A stretch of DNA of 32,726 bases from Zoogloea oleivorans (GTDB lineage: Bacteria > Pseudomonadota > Gammaproteobacteria > Burkholderiales > Rhodocyclaceae): the NCBI RefSeq assembly GCF_008107625.1, contig NZ_SDKK01000009.1:199234-231959 (forward strand), given 5' to 3'. The translations under genes were made by a program, and so were the position numbers. The notes under the pieces are model-generated. The model ran no database searches. It had not been told where the DNA came from and saw only the letters and a program-made list of their open reading frames with translations. This document shows positions 7,862 to 16,721 of the stretch, piece after piece; the stretch's first letter is position 1; each line of letters opens with the position of its first letter.

Positions 7862-9160
7862 TCAGTCCGGCGAGGCGCCGAACAACGCCGCGGTGGCCAC
7901 CGGATTGGACGGGAAATAGAAATGCACGTAGGAGGCGGTCAAGCTGCCCAGCCGGTAGATCGCCTCGCCTTCGCTTCCGGCCGGGGTATGGGCACGGGCG
8001 AGGGGCGCCAGCGGTGTTTCGCTCTTCGAGTAATGGAAGGTGTGGCCGTTGAGGCGTCCTTCCGGCAACTCGGCGACTTGCGTGCCGAGGGCCGCCAGGC
8101 GGGCCTGCATGCGGGTGTGGCCGGGGAGCAGGCCGGCGCCCGGGTGGGTGGTGCCGTCCCGGTCGGTAATCGTCTCGAAGAGGCTCATCATCCCACCGCA
8201 CTCGGCCAGCAGCGGCTTGCCGGCGGCCATGTGGGCCTGCAGGGCGGCTTGCCAGGCACTGTTGGCGGCCAGGCTGGCGGCGTGGAGTTCCGGGTAACCA
8301 CCAGGCAGCCACAGGGCGTCGCAGGCGGGCAGGGCTTCGTTGGCCAGCGGCGAGAAGAACTTCAGCTCGGCGCCAAGGGTTTGCAGCATGTCCAGGTTGG
8401 CCGGGTAGATGAAGCCGAAAGCGGCATCCCGGGCTATGGCAATGGTGCGCCCCTGGAGCAGCGGTTCCACAAACGGGGCCGGTGCTTCGGGGAAGGACAC
8501 CGCCAACGGACGGTCTGCCGCGCCGGTGCGGGCCAGATGATCGGCCAGCAGGTCGAGGCGCGCGTCCAGGTCGGCAATTTCGGCGGCCTGCAGCAGGCCC
8601 AGGTGGCGCTCCGGCAGGGCCGCGGCCTCGTCACGGGGCAGGGCGCCATACCAGGCGATGCCCGGTCGCAGGCTGTCGCGCAGCAACTCGGCGTGGCGTT
8701 CGCTGCCCACGTGGTTGGCCAACACGCCGGAAAAGGGCAGATCCGGTTGCCAGGTGGCCAGACCATGCACCAGCGCACCGAAGGTTTGGGCCATGGCCTT
8801 GGCGTCGATCACCGCCATCACCGGAATGCCGAAGTAACGGGCAATGTCGGCCCCCGACGGGCTGCCGTCGAAGAGGCCCATGACCCCTTCGACAAGGATC
8901 AGGTCGGCCTCCTGGGCGGCAGCGTGCAGGCGCCAGGCCGCGTCGGCCGAACCGCACATGCCGAGATCCAGGTTATAGACCGGCGCGCCGCTGGCCACCG
9001 TGTGGATCTGCGGGTCGAGAAAGTCCGGTCCGCACTTGAACACCCGCACCTTGCGCCCCTGACGGGTGTGCAGGCGGGCGAGGGCGGCGGTGACGGTGGT
9101 CTTGCCCTGGCCGGAGGCCGGTGCGGCAACAAACAGGGCGGGACAGAGGGCTGCGCTCAT
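7862..9160 (-). CDS. cobB: Cobyrinate a,c-diamide synthase
   Basis: This ATP- and glutamine-dependent enzyme amidates the a and c side chains of (hydrogeno)cobyrinic acid in vitamin B12 synthesis (CobB/CbiA family). The 432-residue protein has an N-terminal dethiobiotin-synthetase-like domain with P-loop ASGQGKTT (about 15-22) and GPDFLDP (about 44-50). A class I glutamine amidotransferase domain follows, with LLAECGGMM (nucleophile Cys321) and the GHTFHYS histidine region near 370. Its ATG overlaps the TGA of the upstream cobA as ATGA, so it is the last gene of a three-gene cobalamin operon on this strand. Whether it acts in the aerobic (CobB) or anaerobic (CbiA) route is not clear from this window. 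Confidence 0.93.
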
Positions 9161-9948
9161 GCTTCTTCTTCCGGGTGGAACCAGGCCAGCCGCGGCTGCA
9201 GGCTGACGACGTCGCCGACGATGGTCAGCGCCGGTGGGGTGATGCCGGCGGCTTTCACGTCGGCGGCCAGATTGGCCAGGTTGGAGGTCACCACGCGCTG
9301 ATCGCGGCTGGTGCCACGCCGCACTACCGCTGCCGGCGTGGTGGCGGGCAGGCCGTGGGCGACCAGTTCGGCGCAGATCGTCGCCAGCTGGGTGATGCCC
9401 ATGTAGAACACCAGGGTCTGCTTGGGGCGGGCCAGCATTTCCCAGTCGAGATCGACCGAGCCATCCTTGAGGTGGCCGGTGACAAAGATGCACGACTGGG
9501 CGAAATCGCGGTGGGTCAGCGGAATGCCGGCGTAGGCACCGATGCCCGCCGCCGCGGTAATGCCGGGGATGACCTCGAAGGGAATGCCGGCCTTGACCAG
9601 TTCTTCCACCTCTTCGCCGCCGCGTCCGAAGATGAACGGATCGCCGCCTTTGAGGCGCACCACCCGCTTGCCCTCTTGCGCCAGCCTCACCAGCAGGGCG
9701 TTGATGCCCTCCTGCGGCAGGGAGTGGTTGGAGGCCTTCTTGCCCACATACAAACGCTGGGTGTGCTCCGGCACGCAGTCGAGGACTTCCTTGCTGACCA
9801 GGTTGTCGTAGACCAGGACGTCGGCTTCCAGCAGCAGGCGCGCAGCGCGCAGGGTCAGCAGTTCCGGGTCGCCGGGGCCGGCGCCCACCAGGTAGACCCA
9901 GCCTGGCCGGGCCGGGGAACGTTCGCGGGGGAAGGACGAAGCAGGCAT
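9157..9948 (-). CDS. cobA: Uroporphyrinogen-III C-methyltransferase (SUMT)
   Basis: This enzyme methylates uroporphyrinogen III at C2 and C7 with SAM to give precorrin-2, the branch point to cobalamin and siroheme. The 263-residue protein shows SUMT signatures: [17 protein letters not shown] (about 19-35), [23 protein letters not shown] (about 96-112), [21 protein letters not shown] and a C-terminal ALTIVGDVV. There is no CysG-type dehydrogenase/chelatase domain, so it is the stand-alone form. The start at 9948 is the first Met before the conserved fold and lies 24 nt from the end of the CobL-like gene. It overlaps cobB by 4 nt. Confidence 0.95.
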
Positions 9949-9971: not shown

Positions 9972-11855
9972 TCAGGATAAGCCCGGCTTGCGCCACAGGG
10001 CCAGACGGACTGGCGCACTCGGCGCAAAACGCAGGCGTCCGGCCACGGTTTCGCCGCGGGACAGGCTCAGTTCCTGCCAGGCCTCGGCGGGCACCTGTCC
10101 GGAAAAGGCCAGCAGGTCGGCGCGGGCCTCGTCGTCTTCGGCAGTGGCCACGAGACGGCCGCCGGGCGTGAGACGTTCCCAGGCGGCGGCCAGCCAGTCG
10201 CTCAGGCCGATTCCGCCGCGCACGAACACGGCCTCCGGCGCCGGCCATTCGCGGCTGCGCTGGGGCGTGGCACTGGCCACCGCGGACAGATTTTCGCCCA
10301 CCCCGACGCGGGCCATGGAAACGCCCAGCAGGCTCGGTTCCACGCCCACCGCCCGGACGCGCGCCGTCGGTACCGCCCGTGCCCATTCCAGGGCCAGGCT
10401 GGCTTCACCGTCGGCAATCGCCCAGCCGTTTTCCCAGGCGGCCGGCTGCAGCCAGGCCAGGGCCAGGGTGCGCACGGCCAGCGGCAGGGCGCTGGCGGCG
10501 TCGTCACCCAGGGCTGCTTCGCTGAGGCCGGGCAACTCGGTGAACACGCCGGCAGACGGGCCGGTGGCAAGGATCAACACCGCGTGGGCATCGACGGGTT
10601 CGCGCAGCTCGACCAGCTCGGAAGCCAGCCAGGCGGTGGTTTTCAGCACACCACCGGGGTATTCGCAGACCCACACCCGGGCGCCGCTGAAGCCACTGTC
10701 GAGCAGCAGGCGGGCCACGGCGACCGGTGCGGCTGCATCGGCCACCGGCACGGCCAGCAGGCGATGGGCGCGCAACTGGCCACGCAGGGCGGCCAGCGGG
10801 GCACGCCGCAGGTCCACCACCGAAACGATCTCTGCCGACAAGCCGAGGGCGGCACAGGCGGCCTGCACGCGGCCGACGCCGGGTAGCACGCGCACATGGG
10901 CCGGGCCGAGTTCGGCGAGGAGTTCTGCTGCCGGGCCGTCGCCGGCGCCGTCACCGACCACTACCAGCACGCTGCCGGCGTGGCCGACGGTACGCACGTC
11001 CACATGCGCGGAGTCGGCGGCGCACAACTGCTGTGGCACGTTGAGGTGCAGGCCAGCCAGGCGGTCGAGAGCGTCGGCGGTACCGAGCACCACGCGGGCG
11101 CCGCGCAGTGCAGCCAGCGCTTCGGCAGACAGCACCGGCGGCTGGGTCAGGCCGAGGCTCACCACGGTCAGGGGCTGCAGCGGAGCGGGTTCAGGTTCGG
11201 GGAGCGCCACGGTCAGGACGAGCGGTTCGACCGGGGCCTCAAAGGCCTCCAGCAAGGCCCGCAGCGGGGCTTCGAGCGGGGTGAGTTCGGCGGTGCTCGG
11301 TTGTTCGGTCAATTCGCCCTGGGCTGCCGGCAATTCGCCTTCCGGGGCGTTGTCGCCCTGCGCGCTGCGTTCGCTCTTGCCGCGCCGGCGCTTGCGCTTG
11401 CGGCGCGGGCTGGCAGGCGGTGTGACGAGGGTGTCGCTGCTGGCTGCGGCCTCTTCCGTGGCGGGTTCGTCGCTGGTTTCCGGGGTGACCGCCGGGGCTG
11501 CCTCTGCGCTCACCGCCGCTGTGACAGGCGCTTCGATGGCGACGGGTTCAACCCGTGCTTCGGGCTGCGCTACGGAGACGATTTCTGGTTGCAGTGCGGC
11601 GAACAGGTCGGCTGTCTGCTCGTCCATCACGACGGCTTCGGCGGCTTTTTTCGGCTTGCGCGGCGCGCGCTTGGCCTTTGCCTTCGGCGCAGCGGCGGGC
11701 TCCACCGGTATCACCTCTGCGGTGGCATCCACGGGTAGGGCAGCCACCTTGGCAGGGGCTTTTTTGCGGGGTGTCCGGGCCGCGGCCCTGGGACGGGCCG
11801 ATTCGGCCGCTTCCACCGGATCAAGCACCGGGGCGGGATTCAGTTCTTCGCTCAT
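9972..11855 (-). CDS. CobL/CbiET-like precorrin methyltransferase homologue, degenerate, with long basic N-terminal extension
   Basis: The 627-residue product is much longer than usual CobL (about 400). Residues 1 to about 222 are low-complexity Ala/Pro/Glu-rich with basic clusters ([10 protein letters not shown] about 27-36, [12 protein letters not shown] about 60-71, [13 protein letters not shown] 151-163). Residues about 229-400 align by eye with CbiE, and about 438-625 with CbiT ([20 protein letters not shown], 546-565). Key sites look eroded: the CbiE glycine loop reads SLGLTQPP, the expected GDPLF-type segment reads GDGAGDG, and the CbiT SAM loop (normally DIGAGSGSxxIE) reads [12 protein letters not shown] (479-490). 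ATG 11855 is the first Met of a continuous frame, with only a weak Shine-Dalgarno. It heads the cobL-like/cobA/cobB operon. It may be inactive or altered; family assignment is fairly sure, activity is not. Confidence 0.75.
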
Positions 11856-12034
11856 TCTCTGTCGGTCAGGCCCATGCACAACCGGAAAAACGGGGGTCGC
11901 AGGATAGCACGAAGCCTTTTCCGGCCGCGGGCATGGATGGTTTCCGGAAAAATTCAAGTTTTCCGCGGAATATTCGAAAACAAGCTCTCGATTATGCGAA
12001 ATGTGCATTCAAAAAAACAAACGGGAGACAAGAA
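11856..12034. promoter_or_regulatory. Divergent promoter region with repeated TTTCCGG motifs
   Basis: This 179-base gap separates the cobalamin operon (minus) from the carbonic anhydrase gene (plus). It holds several related palindromic motifs: CCGGAAAAA at 11882-11890, TTTTCCGG at 11917-11924, the perfect palindrome TTTCCGGAAA at 11941-11950, and TTCCGCGGAA at 11961-11970 followed by TTCGAA. Such spacing suggests protein binding at the divergent promoters. I saw no cobalamin riboswitch core and could not place -35/-10 boxes with confidence. Confidence 0.35.
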
Positions 12035-12763
12035 ATGACCACAATGAAACTGATCGCCATCGTCTTTGCTGCCCTGGGCAGCAGCGGCCTTGCCCTTGCC
12101 GGCGACGACCACGGCGGCCCGGCGATACCGCGCCCCTACACCACCGGCGCGACCCTGACCAAGGCCGTTCAGGCCGGCATAAGCCCCGACAAGGCCATTG
12201 ATATCCTGAAGGCCGGCAACGCCCGCTTCGTGGCTGACAAGCCCCTCAAACGCAAGCTCAAGGCCCAGGTGCACACCACGGCTCTCGGCCAGTTTCCCTA
12301 CGCCAGCGTGGTTGGCTGCATCGATTCCCGCGCCGCGCCGGAAGTGGTTTTCGATCAGGGCGTGGGCGACATCTTTACGGCCCGTGTGGCCGGCAACACG
12401 GTGAACGAGGACATCCTCGGCAGCCTCGAATACGCCGCCAAGGTGGCCGGTTCGCGGCTGGTGGTGGTGCTCGGGCACACCAGCTGTGGCGCCATCAAAG
12501 GGGCCTGCGACGATGTGAAGATGGGCAACCTGACGACCCTGCTGGAGAAGTTCAAGCCGGCTGTCGCTGCCGCGTCGACGCCCGGGGAGCACAACTCCCA
12601 CAACCACGCTTTCGTCGATGACGTTACCGAACTCAACGTGAGGCAGGTCGTGCAGAAGATCCGCGACCAGAGCCCGATCCTCAAGGCCATGGAAGACGAA
12701 GGCAAGATCCGCATCGTCGGCGCGCTGTACAACACCAGCAATGGCAAGGTGAACTGGTACTGA
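12035..12763 (+). CDS. Exported beta-class carbonic anhydrase
   Basis: This zinc enzyme interconverts CO2 and bicarbonate. The 242-residue protein has a Sec-type signal peptide (Lys5, hydrophobic 6-20, likely cleavage after ALA at 22), so it should act in the periplasm. The beta-CA signatures are complete: CIDSRAAPE gives Cys95, Asp97 and Arg99; GHTSCGA gives His148 and Cys151. Those supply the Cys-His-Cys zinc set and the Asp-Arg dyad. The C-terminal IVGALYNTSNGKVNWY is typical. GGGAG lies 7 nt before ATG 12035; the frame is open far upstream but that part overlaps the CobL-like gene. A strong hairpin terminator follows the stop. Confidence 0.93.
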   Translation: MTTMKLIAIVFAALGSSGLALAGDDHGGPAIPRPYTTGATLTKAVQAGISPDKAIDILKAGNARFVADKPLKRKLKAQVHTTALGQFPYASVVGCIDSRAAPEVVFDQGVGDIFTARVAGNTVNEDILGSLEYAAKVAGSRLVVVLGHTSCGAIKGACDDVKMGNLTTLLEKFKPAVAAASTPGEHNSHNHAFVDDVTELNVRQVVQKIRDQSPILKAMEDEGKIRIVGALYNTSNGKVNWY

Positions 12764-12783
12764 GCCTGTTACGACCCGGATGC

Positions 12784-12811
12784 AACGAGGCCCGCTTGTG
12801 CGGGCCTCGTT
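12784..12811. terminator. Rho-independent terminator between convergent genes
   Basis: A 12-bp perfect stem, AACGAGGCCCGC with GCGGGCCTCGTT, encloses a TTGT loop. On the plus strand it is followed by a T-rich tail (CGTTTC), so it should end the carbonic anhydrase transcript. It lies 20 nt past that stop and 23 nt before the stop of the convergent oxidase gene, and may work in both directions. Confidence 0.85.
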
Positions 12812-12833
12812 CGTTTCAGGCCGCGCTGAAGCC

Positions 12834-15800
12834 TTACACCAGCACGCGCTCGATGCCGCCGTTGTTGGCCTTGGCCACGTACTCGGCCATCCAGTTTTCA
12901 CCGAGGATGTGCCTGGCCATTTCGACCACGATGTAGTCGGCATCCACGCCGCCCGCATCGCCGGCGTAGCGCGACAGGCCCTGCAGGCAGCTCGGGCAGG
13001 AGGTGAGGATCTTCACCGGCGTGGCGGCGTCGGCACCGCGCAGCTTCTCGGCGCCCTTCTCGATCTCTTCCTGCTTGCGGAAGCGCACCTGGGTGGAGAT
13101 GTCCGGACGGGCCACCGCCAGGGTGCCGGACTCGCCGCAGCAGCGGTCGGACAGGTCGACCCGCGTGCCCATCAGCTCGTTGGCCACCTTGATGCCCGAA
13201 TGGACCTTCATCGGGGTGTGGCACGGCTCGTGGTACATGTAGCGGGTACCGCTGATGCCGTCGAGCTTGAGGCCCTTTTCCATCAGGTATTCGTGGATGT
13301 CGAGCAGCCGGCAGCCGGGGAAGATCTTCTCGAACTGATACTTCTGCAGTTGATCCATGCAGGTGCCGCAGGACACGATCACTGTCTTGATGTCGAGATA
13401 GTTGAGCGTGTTGGCGACCCGGTGGAAGAGCACCCGGTTATCGGTGGTGATCTTCTGGCCGGCGTCTTCTTCGCCCGCGGCGGTTTGCGGGTAGCCGCAG
13501 CACAGGTAGCCCGGCGGCAGCACGGTGGTGGCGCCGACCTGGTAGAGCATGGCCTGGGTCGCCAGGCCGACCTGGCTGAACAGGCGCTCGGAACCGCAAC
13601 CCGGGAAGTAGAACACCGCGTCGGATTCATCGCGCTTCAGTTGCGGGTTGCGGATCACCGGGACGATGGTGTCGTCCTCGATATCGAGCAGCGCGCGCGA
13701 GGTGCGCTTGGGCAGCCCGCCCGGCATCGGCTTGTTGATGAAGTGGATGATCTGGGCCTTGATGGCCGGCTTGCCGAGGGTTGCCGGCGGATGCTGGACC
13801 TGGTCCTGGATCAGCCCGAGGCTCTTGCCGATGCGGTGGCCAAGGCGCTGGGCCTTGTAGCCCCAGCCGATCATGCCGGCACGGATCAGCTTGATGGTGG
13901 CCGGATCCTTGGCGGTCAGGAAGGCCATCGCCGCGGCCTTGCCGGGGTTGAAGGACTTCTTGCCCTGCTCGCGCAGCAGGTTGCGCATCTTGATCGACAC
14001 GTCGCCGAAGTCGATGTCGACGGGGCAGGGCTTCTCGCACTTGTGGCACACGGTGCAATGGTCGGCCACGTCCTCGAACTCGGCCCAGTGGGCCAGCGAC
14101 ACGCCGCGACGGGTCTGCTCCTCGTAGAGGAAGGCTTCGATCAACAGCGAGGTGCTGAGGATCTTGTTGCGCGGGCTGTACAGCAGGTTGGCGCGCGGCA
14201 CGTGGGTCGAGCACACCGGCTTGCACTTGCCGCAGCGCAGGCAGTCCTTGATGTCGTGGGAGATCTCGCCGATGGCGGTCTGCTCCATGATCAGGGATTC
14301 GTGTCCCATCAGGTTGAAGCTGGGCGTGTAGGCGTTGTCGAGGTTGCCGCCCTTCATCAGCTTGCCGCGGTTGAAGCGGCCTTCCGGGTCCACCTTTTTC
14401 TTGTAGGCCCAGTAGTTGGCCATCTCGGCGTCGGTGAGATAGTCGAGCTTGGTGATGCCGATGCCATGCTCACCCGAGATCACTCCATCCAGCGAACGGG
14501 CCAGCGCCATGATGCGGTCGACGGCCTTGTTGGCGGTCTGCAGCATCTCGTAGTTGTCGGAGTTGACCGGGATGTTGGTGTGCACGTTGCCGTCGCCGGC
14601 GTGCATGTGCAGGGCCACGAAGACGCGGCCGCGCAGCACCTGCTTATGCACCTTCTTGAGCTGTTCGACCACCGGCGCAAACAGCACGCCATCGAAAATC
14701 TTGTCGAGGCGCGACTTGAGCTCGAGCTTCCAGCTGGTGCGGACCGAGTAGTCCTGCAGGCGGTGGAAGAGCTTGGGGTTGACGGTACGGTTGGTCAGCT
14801 CGCCAGCCACCACGCCATAGTCGGCGAAGTGCGGCTCGGCCTCGGCCAGCGGCGTGTCGAGGTTGTCGAGCAGCCATTCCCAGCGGCGGCGCACGCTGGC
14901 CACGTAGTCCAGCGCGTCCTTGCGGCGTTCGCCGATCAACTCGTCGCGGGAAATGGTGGCGTCGCCGGTATCCAGCGGCAGCTCGCCGTCAAGAAACTCG
15001 GTCAGCGCGTCGCACAGGGCCAGCTTGTTGTGCGTGGACAGCTCGATGTTGATGCGCTCGATGCCGTCGCAGTAGTCGCCCATGCGCGGCAACGGGATCA
15101 CCACGTCTTCGTTCACCTTGAAGGCGTTGGTGTGGCGCGAGATGGCGGCGGTGCGCGAGCGGTCGAGCCAGAACTTCTTGCGCTGCTCGGGGCTGACGGC
15201 GATGAAACCTTCGGCGCCGCGGGTGTTGGTCATGCGGATGACTTCGGAAGCGGCGGTCATCACCGCGTTCTCGTCATGGCCGACGATGTCGCCGATCAGC
15301 ACCATCTTGGGCCGCCCGTGGCGCTTGGCCTTGGTGGTGTAGCCCACCGCCTTCACGTAGCGCTCGTCGAGGTGCTCGAGGCCGGCCAGCAGCACGCTGG
15401 CCGCATTGCCGGCGCCGCCCGGCTTGAAGTAGTCGGTGATCTCGACGATGGCCGGCACGGCTTCGCGCACCTGGCCGAAGAACTCCAGGCACACCGTGCG
15501 GGTCACCGGCGGCATCTTGTGCAGCACCCAGCGCGACGCCACGATGAGGCCATCGGTGCCTTCCTTCTGCACGCCCGGCACGCCGCCGAGGAACTTGTCG
15601 GTGACGTCCTTGCCCAGGCCGTCCTTGCGGCAGCTGGCGCCGGGCAGCGACAGCACTTCTTCGGACAGCAGCGTGTAGTTCTTGGCGTCAAAACGCTTGA
15701 GGCGGAACTCGACCGTCTTCTGCTCGTGGATCTTGCCGAAGTTGTGGTTGAGGCGTTCGACCTCCAGCCAGTCGCCGTCCGGCGTGACCATCTTCCACCA

Positions 15801-16721
15801 GGCCAGGTTGTCGAGCGCGGTGCCCCACAGCACGGCCTTCTTGCCGCCGGCGTTCATGGCGATGTTGCCGCCGATGCACGAGGCACTCGCCGAGGTCGGG
15901 TCCACGGCAAACACGCGGCCGGCCAGGGATGCGGCTTCGGACACGCGCTCGGTGACCACGCCGGCGCCGGTGCGGATGGTGGCGTAGGGCTGGCTGTGGC
16001 CGGGCAGCACGATCTCTTCGACCGGGCCCATCGAGATCAGCTTCTCGGTGTTGATGACCACCGAATTGGCGTCGAGCGGCACGGCGCCGCCGGTGTAACC
16101 GGTGCCACCCCCGCGCGGAATGATGGTCATCCCGAGTTCGATGCAGCTCTTCACCAGCGGGGCCATTTCCTCTTCGGTGTCCGGGTAGAGGACCACGAAG
16201 GGGTATTCCACACGCCAGTCGGTGGCGTCGGTCACGTGCGAAACGCGGGCGTGGCCGTCAAAGCAGATGTTGTCCTTGCGGGTGTGGCGAACCAGTTCGC
16301 GCTGCACGCGCTTTCTCAGGTCGTAGGTGTTTTCGAAGAACTTCTCGAAGCGGTCGACCGCACCATGGGCGGCCGACACCAGGCGCGCCACCTTGGCGCT
16401 GCGTTCGGCGTCTTCGGCGCCCGCTTCACCGGCGTCCTCGCGGCGCTTTTCGACTTCGCGCAGGCGGTGGCGCAGGGCTTCGATCAGCGCACCGCGACGG
16501 TCGCGGTTGCCGAGCAGGTCGTCCTGCAGGTAGGGGTTGCGCTGGACAACCCACACATCCCCCAGCACCTCATAGAGCATCCGTGCAGAACGGCCGGTGA
16601 CACGCTCGGAACGCAGGGCGTCGAGGGTCTCCCAGGCGTCCGGGCCGAGCAGGCGGATGACGATCTCGCGGTCGGAGAACGAGGTGTAGTTATAGGGGAT
16701 TTCGCGCAGGCGTTGGGTCAT
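12834..16721 (-). CDS. FAD-linked oxidase / Fe-S fusion protein (DUF3683, GlcD-GlcF-like)
   Basis: This 1295-residue oxidoreductase joins what are often separate subunits. Residues 1 to about 125 form a DUF3683-like N-terminus. An FAD-binding (PCMH) domain follows, with [13 protein letters not shown] (about 200-212) and [18 protein letters not shown], then an FAD-oxidase C-terminal domain with [15 protein letters not shown] and GEHGIG. Two [4Fe-4S] motifs follow: [11 protein letters not shown] (about 824-836) and [12 protein letters not shown] (about 887-898). Two CCG-type cysteine domains come last (FPGCGSERL and YLCCGYP near 1037-1075; DRCCGESGT near 1195). The family suggests oxidation of a D-2-hydroxyacid such as D-lactate or glycolate with electrons to quinone; the substrate is inferred. 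ATG 16721 has an AGG about 9 nt upstream. It appears to be a single-gene transcript. Confidence 0.9.

Follow-up and report, generated by a model that had tools for sequence, protein, structure and literature searches.

psCobL, a CobL/CbiET relative with a replaced SAM site in Zoogloea: a candidate corrinoid-binding partner of CobA

In Zoogloea oleivorans, the gene that precedes cobA encodes a protein, here called psCobL, that is related to CobL and CbiET and has lost residues of the SAM site. Its core is under strong purifying selection and is not decaying. With moderate confidence, we read psCobL as a repurposed, non-methylating CobL/CbiET relative that would bind a tetrapyrrole or corrinoid as a partner of CobA and of salvage. 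The DNA considered here (the window) is the whole stretch of 32,726 nt from assembly GCF_008107625.1, contig NZ_SDKK01000009.1, positions 199,234 to 231,959. Residue numbers refer to the last 400 amino acids of psCobL; 227 is added to obtain the position in the 627-aa protein.

Gene and operon

The genes and the upstream element are as follows.

9972-11855, minus strand: psCobL coding sequence, 627 aa, ATG at 11855, stop at 9972-9974, frame uninterrupted
9157-9948, minus strand: cobA, uroporphyrinogen-III C-methyltransferase (SUMT), TIGR01469 at 314.7 bits (cut-off 185)
7862-9160, minus strand: cobB, cobyrinic acid a,c-diamide synthase, NF002204 at 455.2 bits (cut-off 254)
11882-11920, minus strand: conserved promoter-like block 5' of psCobL, recognisable in 11 of 11 printed loci, weakest in L027 and L031

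The operon order is psCobL-cobA-cobB on the minus strand, with a gap of 23 bases between psCobL and cobA and an overlap of four bases between cobA and cobB. A second model for cobB, TIGR00379, scores 259.6 bits, slightly below its cut-off of 261.4. The preliminary description had placed the gene first in an intact cobalamin operon. Its first position with cobA and cobB stands; "intact" is an overstatement, since the main cob operon lies on another contig (C45).

The mechanical open reading frame is longer (678 aa, 9972-12008, minus strand). The true start is likely to be the ATG at 11855 (MSEELNPAP, 627 aa), because the DNA upstream of it is the promoter-like block, which is conserved as DNA among relatives. 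The additional 51 N-terminal residues of the 678-aa frame were therefore rejected: they correspond to promoter DNA, conserved as DNA across shifted frames. This start is consistent with the residue numbering (225-627) of the preliminary description, and the stops flagged in some relatives lie 5' of the equivalent of ATG 11855. One locus (L031, genome G014) has lost the usual ATG but keeps an open frame.

The 39-base block (11882-11920, minus strand) reads AAAAGGCTTCGTGCTATCCTGCG...TTTTTCCGG; at up to 3 mismatches it is absent from the cob-operon locus L009. A riboswitch was considered as the cause of the conserved upstream DNA and rejected: no Rfam family reaches its gathering threshold in the window, and nearby there is just one unrelated sub-threshold match.

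Domains and predicted fold

Two domains make up the core.

10659-11165, minus strand: CbiE-like (tetrapyrrole methylase) domain, TIGR02467 at 45.9 bits, PF00590 at 30 bits (cut-off 27.8)
9975-10484, minus strand: CbiT-like class I methyltransferase-fold domain, NF005640 at 40.7 bits, TIGR02469 at 35.2 bits

The matches to the NCBIfam equivalog models reach about half of the curated cut-offs (45.9 against 92.9 bits for CbiE, 35.2 against 78.3 for CbiT), and no curated NCBIfam model matches psCobL at its own cut-off. In Pfam, the tetrapyrrole methylase domain is the sole match. By sequence, the closest solved chains are C-terminal domains of the CobL type, 3hm2 (8.7e-14) and 3njr (2.1e-10).

The AlphaFold2 model of psCobL, calculated from 62 diverse rows, has a pLDDT of 89.3 and a pTM of 0.67; its input alignment includes canonical enzymes, which may pull the model toward the canonical fold. 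A run with 20 similar rows (pLDDT 60) was left out of the analysis. In Foldseek searches, the CbiT half matches 3njr (TMt 0.86, rmsd 2.2), with 3hm2 and 3e05 also among the top PDB matches, and the CbiE half matches 2bb3 (TMt 0.75). Both the CbiE-like and the CbiT-like fold are thus predicted to be intact. The claim that the CbiE plus CbiT layout is kept is borne out by the sub-cut-off NCBIfam matches together with these predicted folds.

psCobL shares this layout and fold with CobL, the aerobic precorrin-6B C5,15-methyltransferase represented by 3njr and 3hm2, its nearest solved relatives. The activity of canonical CobL/CbiET comprises methylation at C5 and C15 and decarboxylation at C12. Unlike CobL, it lacks the SAM loop, the acid after beta-2 and the Gly after beta-4, carries a long tail and stays below the curated cut-offs.

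Residues of the SAM site

In class I methyltransferases, SAM is held by a D/G loop and by an acid after beta-2. We compared these and other diagnostic positions in an alignment of 106 rows, which contains 20 psCobL cores from Zoogloea, six from a second genus (g73, see below) and 80 distinct canonical CobL/CbiET proteins; residue tables made on subsets agree with it. The segments that differ most clearly are the following.

10386-10424, minus strand: replaced SAM loop, 13 aa (canonical WDIGAGSGS..E), D and the first and third G absent from all 26 psCobL proteins
10218-10220, minus strand: Arg after beta-4 (R319; canonical Gly), R in 26 of 26 against G in 80 of 80
10137-10139, minus strand: Glu after beta-5 (E346; canonical V/A/I), E in 26 of 26 against 0 of 80
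10935-10955, minus strand: GDGAGDG replacing GDP(L/M) of CbiE, P76 in 80 of 80 canonical proteins, replaced by G or A in every one of the 20 Zoogloea cores

Twelve positions, T230, R235, W251, D252, G254, G256, G258, E277, P313, F317, G319 and G320, are each invariant in the 80 canonical proteins. None of the 26 psCobL proteins keeps T230, D252, G254, G258, E277 or G319, and E277, the acid after beta-2, is replaced by G in all of them. Of the 26, 21 retain G256, the middle glycine of the loop, and 20 retain G320; R235, W251, P313 and F317 are common to all. In the AlphaFold2 model, beta-4 spans 315-318 and beta-5 spans 340-345, so that positions 319 and 346 come directly after the two strands; the Arg319/Glu346 pair would accordingly meet in the old SAM site of the model. 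Structure prediction, which had been proposed as a check, gives a kept fold with the canonical SAM-pocket residues replaced.

In PMC3672029, the AdoHcy contacts expected of CbiT lie in the loops after beta-1, beta-2, beta-3 and beta-4 and in an N-terminal stretch, and Arg22 of MT0146 is placed near a putative precorrin pocket. By manual count, R235 of psCobL aligns with this Arg22, and it is R in all 26 psCobL and all 80 canonical proteins. The remaining putative precorrin contacts of CbiT are unrecognisable in psCobL, although CobL is not fixed there either, and the role of R235 may be structural rather than precorrin-contacting.

The three motifs quoted in the preliminary description as eroded, namely the SAM loop, GDGAGDG and the CbiE N-terminal loop SLGLTQPP, are all present in the translation. 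SLGLTQPP, however, is by itself a weak sign of erosion, because the same loop in the working CbiET of Zoogloea reads GILDDGWSGL.

The CbiE half differs between the two genera. All six g73 proteins retain the proline of its GDP motif (GDP in five, GNP in one) and have gaps towards the N-terminus of CbiE; since the motif is kept, SAM binding by the CbiE half may persist in g73. This bears on the proposal that psCobL has an altered chemistry, for instance decarboxylation by the CbiT half without SAM, or methyl transfer by the CbiE half, with a precorrin or a siroheme-type compound as substrate. The two folds predicted to be intact, the GDP or GNP of the g73 proteins and the new invariant R and E in the former active-site region would fit such a chemistry. 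However, with GDP broken in 20 of 20 Zoogloea cores and the CbiE N-terminus gapped in g73, no single known set of active-site residues is shared, and we consider the proposal unlikely. Because the methyl-donor pocket is replaced, psCobL probably serves as a binding or partner protein and not as a catalyst.

Distribution, origin and selection

psCobL is matched in 21 of 23 Zoogloea genomes, including that of the window; in 20 the core is complete, and in one (G022) it is cut by a contig end. It is unmatched in G005 (310 contigs) and G008 (900 contigs), where cobB is likewise not found. More diverged members occur in all six g73 genomes examined: the Zoogloea profile recovers five, at 163-263 bits, in a scan of 199 family genomes, and the sixth (G240) was added. 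A two-genus profile matches 25 of 395 family genomes at 1e-18, which belong to 2 of 68 genera. Apart from psCobL, the matches fetched from scans of the order (399 genomes) and the phylum (398 genomes) are all canonical. The scans of order, phylum and family scored 4 to 19 candidates per genome, so a distant member could be missed, and the matches in G119, G131, G140, G222, G236, G903 and G656 are not included. The match in G033 is a canonical CbiET, not psCobL.

In a maximum-likelihood tree of 68 proteins, in which 17 of the 26 psCobL proteins are represented, psCobL forms one clade with support 100/100, on a long branch outside the CbiET of the family; the exact position of the clade is uncertain because long branches meet. 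The tree and the patchy identity of about 30% argue against a recent duplication of the Zoogloea CbiET as the source of psCobL. That CbiET has the same domain order as psCobL; it differs in its canonical motifs, in its identity of about 30% over two stretches, in its separate clade and in its other operon.

In each of the 20 Zoogloea loci the core is an open frame of 399-402 aa. Selection was estimated by the pairwise Nei-Gojobori method in the 14 genomes that carry all the genes (91 non-independent pairs). The median omega is 0.182 for the psCobL core, 0.473 for its tail, 0.327 for CbiET and 0.158 for CobA. The core cannot safely be called more constrained than CbiET, because dS is unequal between the genes (0.68, 0.43, 0.56) and the median dN of the core is near that of CbiET (0.133 and 0.145); the safe statement is that its constraint is similar to that of a working enzyme. 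The argument that an intact frame means continued selection is thus upheld by the low omega of the core and by its open frame. For the same reasons, and because of the conservation across two genera, we regard it as very improbable that psCobL is a slowly decaying remnant of an enzyme that the cobA operon has retained by chance, even though its SAM motifs are gone and the usual ATG is lost in G014.

The cobalamin pathway around psCobL

The link to cobA is constant: cobA starts 19-77 bases past psCobL wherever a Zoogloea locus has a complete core (20 of 20), and it adjoins psCobL in all six g73 loci. In the same 20 Zoogloea loci, cobB follows cobA on the same contig (two are cut by contig ends).

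A search for a second CobL/CbiE/CbiT in the genome, suggested earlier, yields a full-strength CbiET on another contig (G000:C45:138090-139376; CbiE 160.7, CbiT 128.9 bits), whose closest solved chain is 3e05. Its neighbours are homologues of CobI, CbiG, CobJ, CbiD, CbiC and CobM, and a cobalamin riboswitch lies ahead of the operon. Such a CbiET is present in 16 of 23 Zoogloea genomes (E below 1e-200). Neither CbiET nor CbiC was found in six (G001, G005, G006, G014, G015 and G022). G006 and G014, both 100% complete, have no CobI/J/M-type match, apart from one unassigned 29.6-bit match in G006, and both retain psCobL-cobA-cobB. In g73, PF00590 gives no match of the CobI/J/M/CbiET type in any of the six genomes (80-100% complete). 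Since the genomes are mostly drafts or MAGs, pathway genes that seem absent may simply be missing from the assemblies. Two observations go beyond the preliminary description: psCobL is, by the tree, no copy of the Zoogloea CbiET, and it persists where corrin-ring enzymes are not found.

In g73, a B12-uptake set lies upstream of psCobL; beyond the profile matches, its members were assigned by eye from the protein starts, and locus L111 begins inside the set. Profiles identify BtuC, a BtuD-type ATPase, CobO and a CobN-like protein in L106, and CobO and CobU in L109; L107 has a BtuB-like receptor that scores below its cut-off. The CobN/BchH-like protein of L106 (G094; 11495-15808, minus strand) is 1437 aa long, has a signal peptide by eye and is encoded between cobO and psCobL, about 900 bases from the latter. 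A cobalamin riboswitch precedes btuB in L107, L109 and L110 (93, 85 and 97 bits); none is seen in L106, where btuB reaches the edge of the stretch (the search did not include L108 and L111). Beyond psCobL-cobA, the same three loci have a c-di-GMP-I riboswitch (79-80 bits; L107 12197-12284, L109 12875-12962, L110 3100-3187).

Only in G094 does a CobB-like GATase_3 protein adjoin psCobL-cobA; four g73 genomes have it on other contigs, and none was found in G183. G006 and all six g73 genomes, but not G014, encode another GATase_3 protein with a stronger match, which we take as CobQ from its score and length. CobB or a CobB-like protein is kept in G006, G014, G094, G148, G212, G235 and G240, where no CobI/J/M-type methyltransferase was found.

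The N-terminal tail

The core is preceded by a tail in which two short motifs recur.

11175-11855, minus strand: N-terminal tail of about 227 aa (Ala/Pro/charged), presumably disordered and evolving fast (median dN/dS 0.47, 91 pairs)
11601-11612, minus strand: ADLF short linear motif, in 20 of 20 Zoogloea tails read
11376-11405, minus strand: basic motif of 10 aa, in 19 of 20 tails by pattern, the 20th (L025) having a variant reading

The counts refer to 20 tails, as the 21st locus starts past the tail; the tail length, measured in six members, is 203-317 aa. One g73 protein (G094) has QADLPF in its tail. We take ADLF and QADLPF to be candidate likenesses of beta-clamp-binding peptides, the Zoogloea motif being without the leading Gln. 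By eye, the basic tail is absent from three of the six g73 proteins, so the tail is not the shared function.

The tail invites the idea of a corrinoid- or precorrin-sensing regulator, whose dead core would sense the ligand while the basic tail or ADLF contacts a nucleic acid or protein target and so controls cob/btu genes or siroheme flux. The strongly basic motif and ADLF in the Zoogloea tails and the first place of psCobL in its operon speak for it. Neither Pfam nor NCBIfam, however, detects a DNA-binding domain in psCobL, half of the g73 proteins have no basic tail, and the Zoogloea cob operon and three btu operons of g73 are already under cobalamin riboswitches; a regulator is therefore a rather improbable reading.

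Proposed function

The steps we propose for psCobL as a binding and partner protein are as follows. SAM binding by the CbiT half would be prevented by the invariant Arg/Glu pair at neighbouring strand ends, which would occupy part of the pocket. The tetrapyrrole-binding groove would be kept, with one putative precorrin-contacting Arg invariant. With the groove kept and SAM not bound, psCobL would bind precorrin or corrinoid and serve CobA and the enzymes of corrinoid uptake and salvage as a partner, a carrier or a means of hand-over. In Zoogloea, the tail may tether it to another component. This role is the simplest reading of the data, and we put its chances at about even. A more specific form, in which a lineage-specific non-catalytic CobL binds tetrapyrroles or corrinoids inside the cell, links SUMT (CobA) as an adaptor with the uptake and salvage of corrinoids, and has outlived the pathway, is more tentative and in our view somewhat less likely to be right than wrong. 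The link between psCobL and cobA could also be inherited from an old operon, without any task in common.

Pseudoenzymes are inactive relatives of enzymes that are kept for binding or regulation. psCobL is like them in its predicted retention of the fold, loss of cofactor residues, purifying selection and an active homologue in 16 of 23 genomes; its own catalytic inactivity is likely on the basis of the residues lost. Of the options in the preliminary description, a selected pseudo-enzyme is thus favoured, by the intact CbiET elsewhere, the predicted fold, the SAM residues lost in 26 of 26 and the low dN/dS. Among the papers listed by full-text searches outside subscription journals and preprints, no title or abstract opening describes a cobalamin-pathway pseudoenzyme of this kind.

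Implications

In practice, pathway profilers that rely on similarity could mistake psCobL for cobL and thereby call B12 auxotrophs producers. The proposed HMM check, with scores at about half of the curated cut-offs, indicates that applying the NCBIfam cut-offs would avoid this miscall. To our knowledge, few dedicated proteins are known for the hand-over of precorrins and corrinoids, and psCobL would offer a small, testable system for such hand-over between proteins. The broader suggestion from psCobL is that a fold from corrin biosynthesis can be retained for a role other than methyl transfer, even without the enzymes that make the ring.
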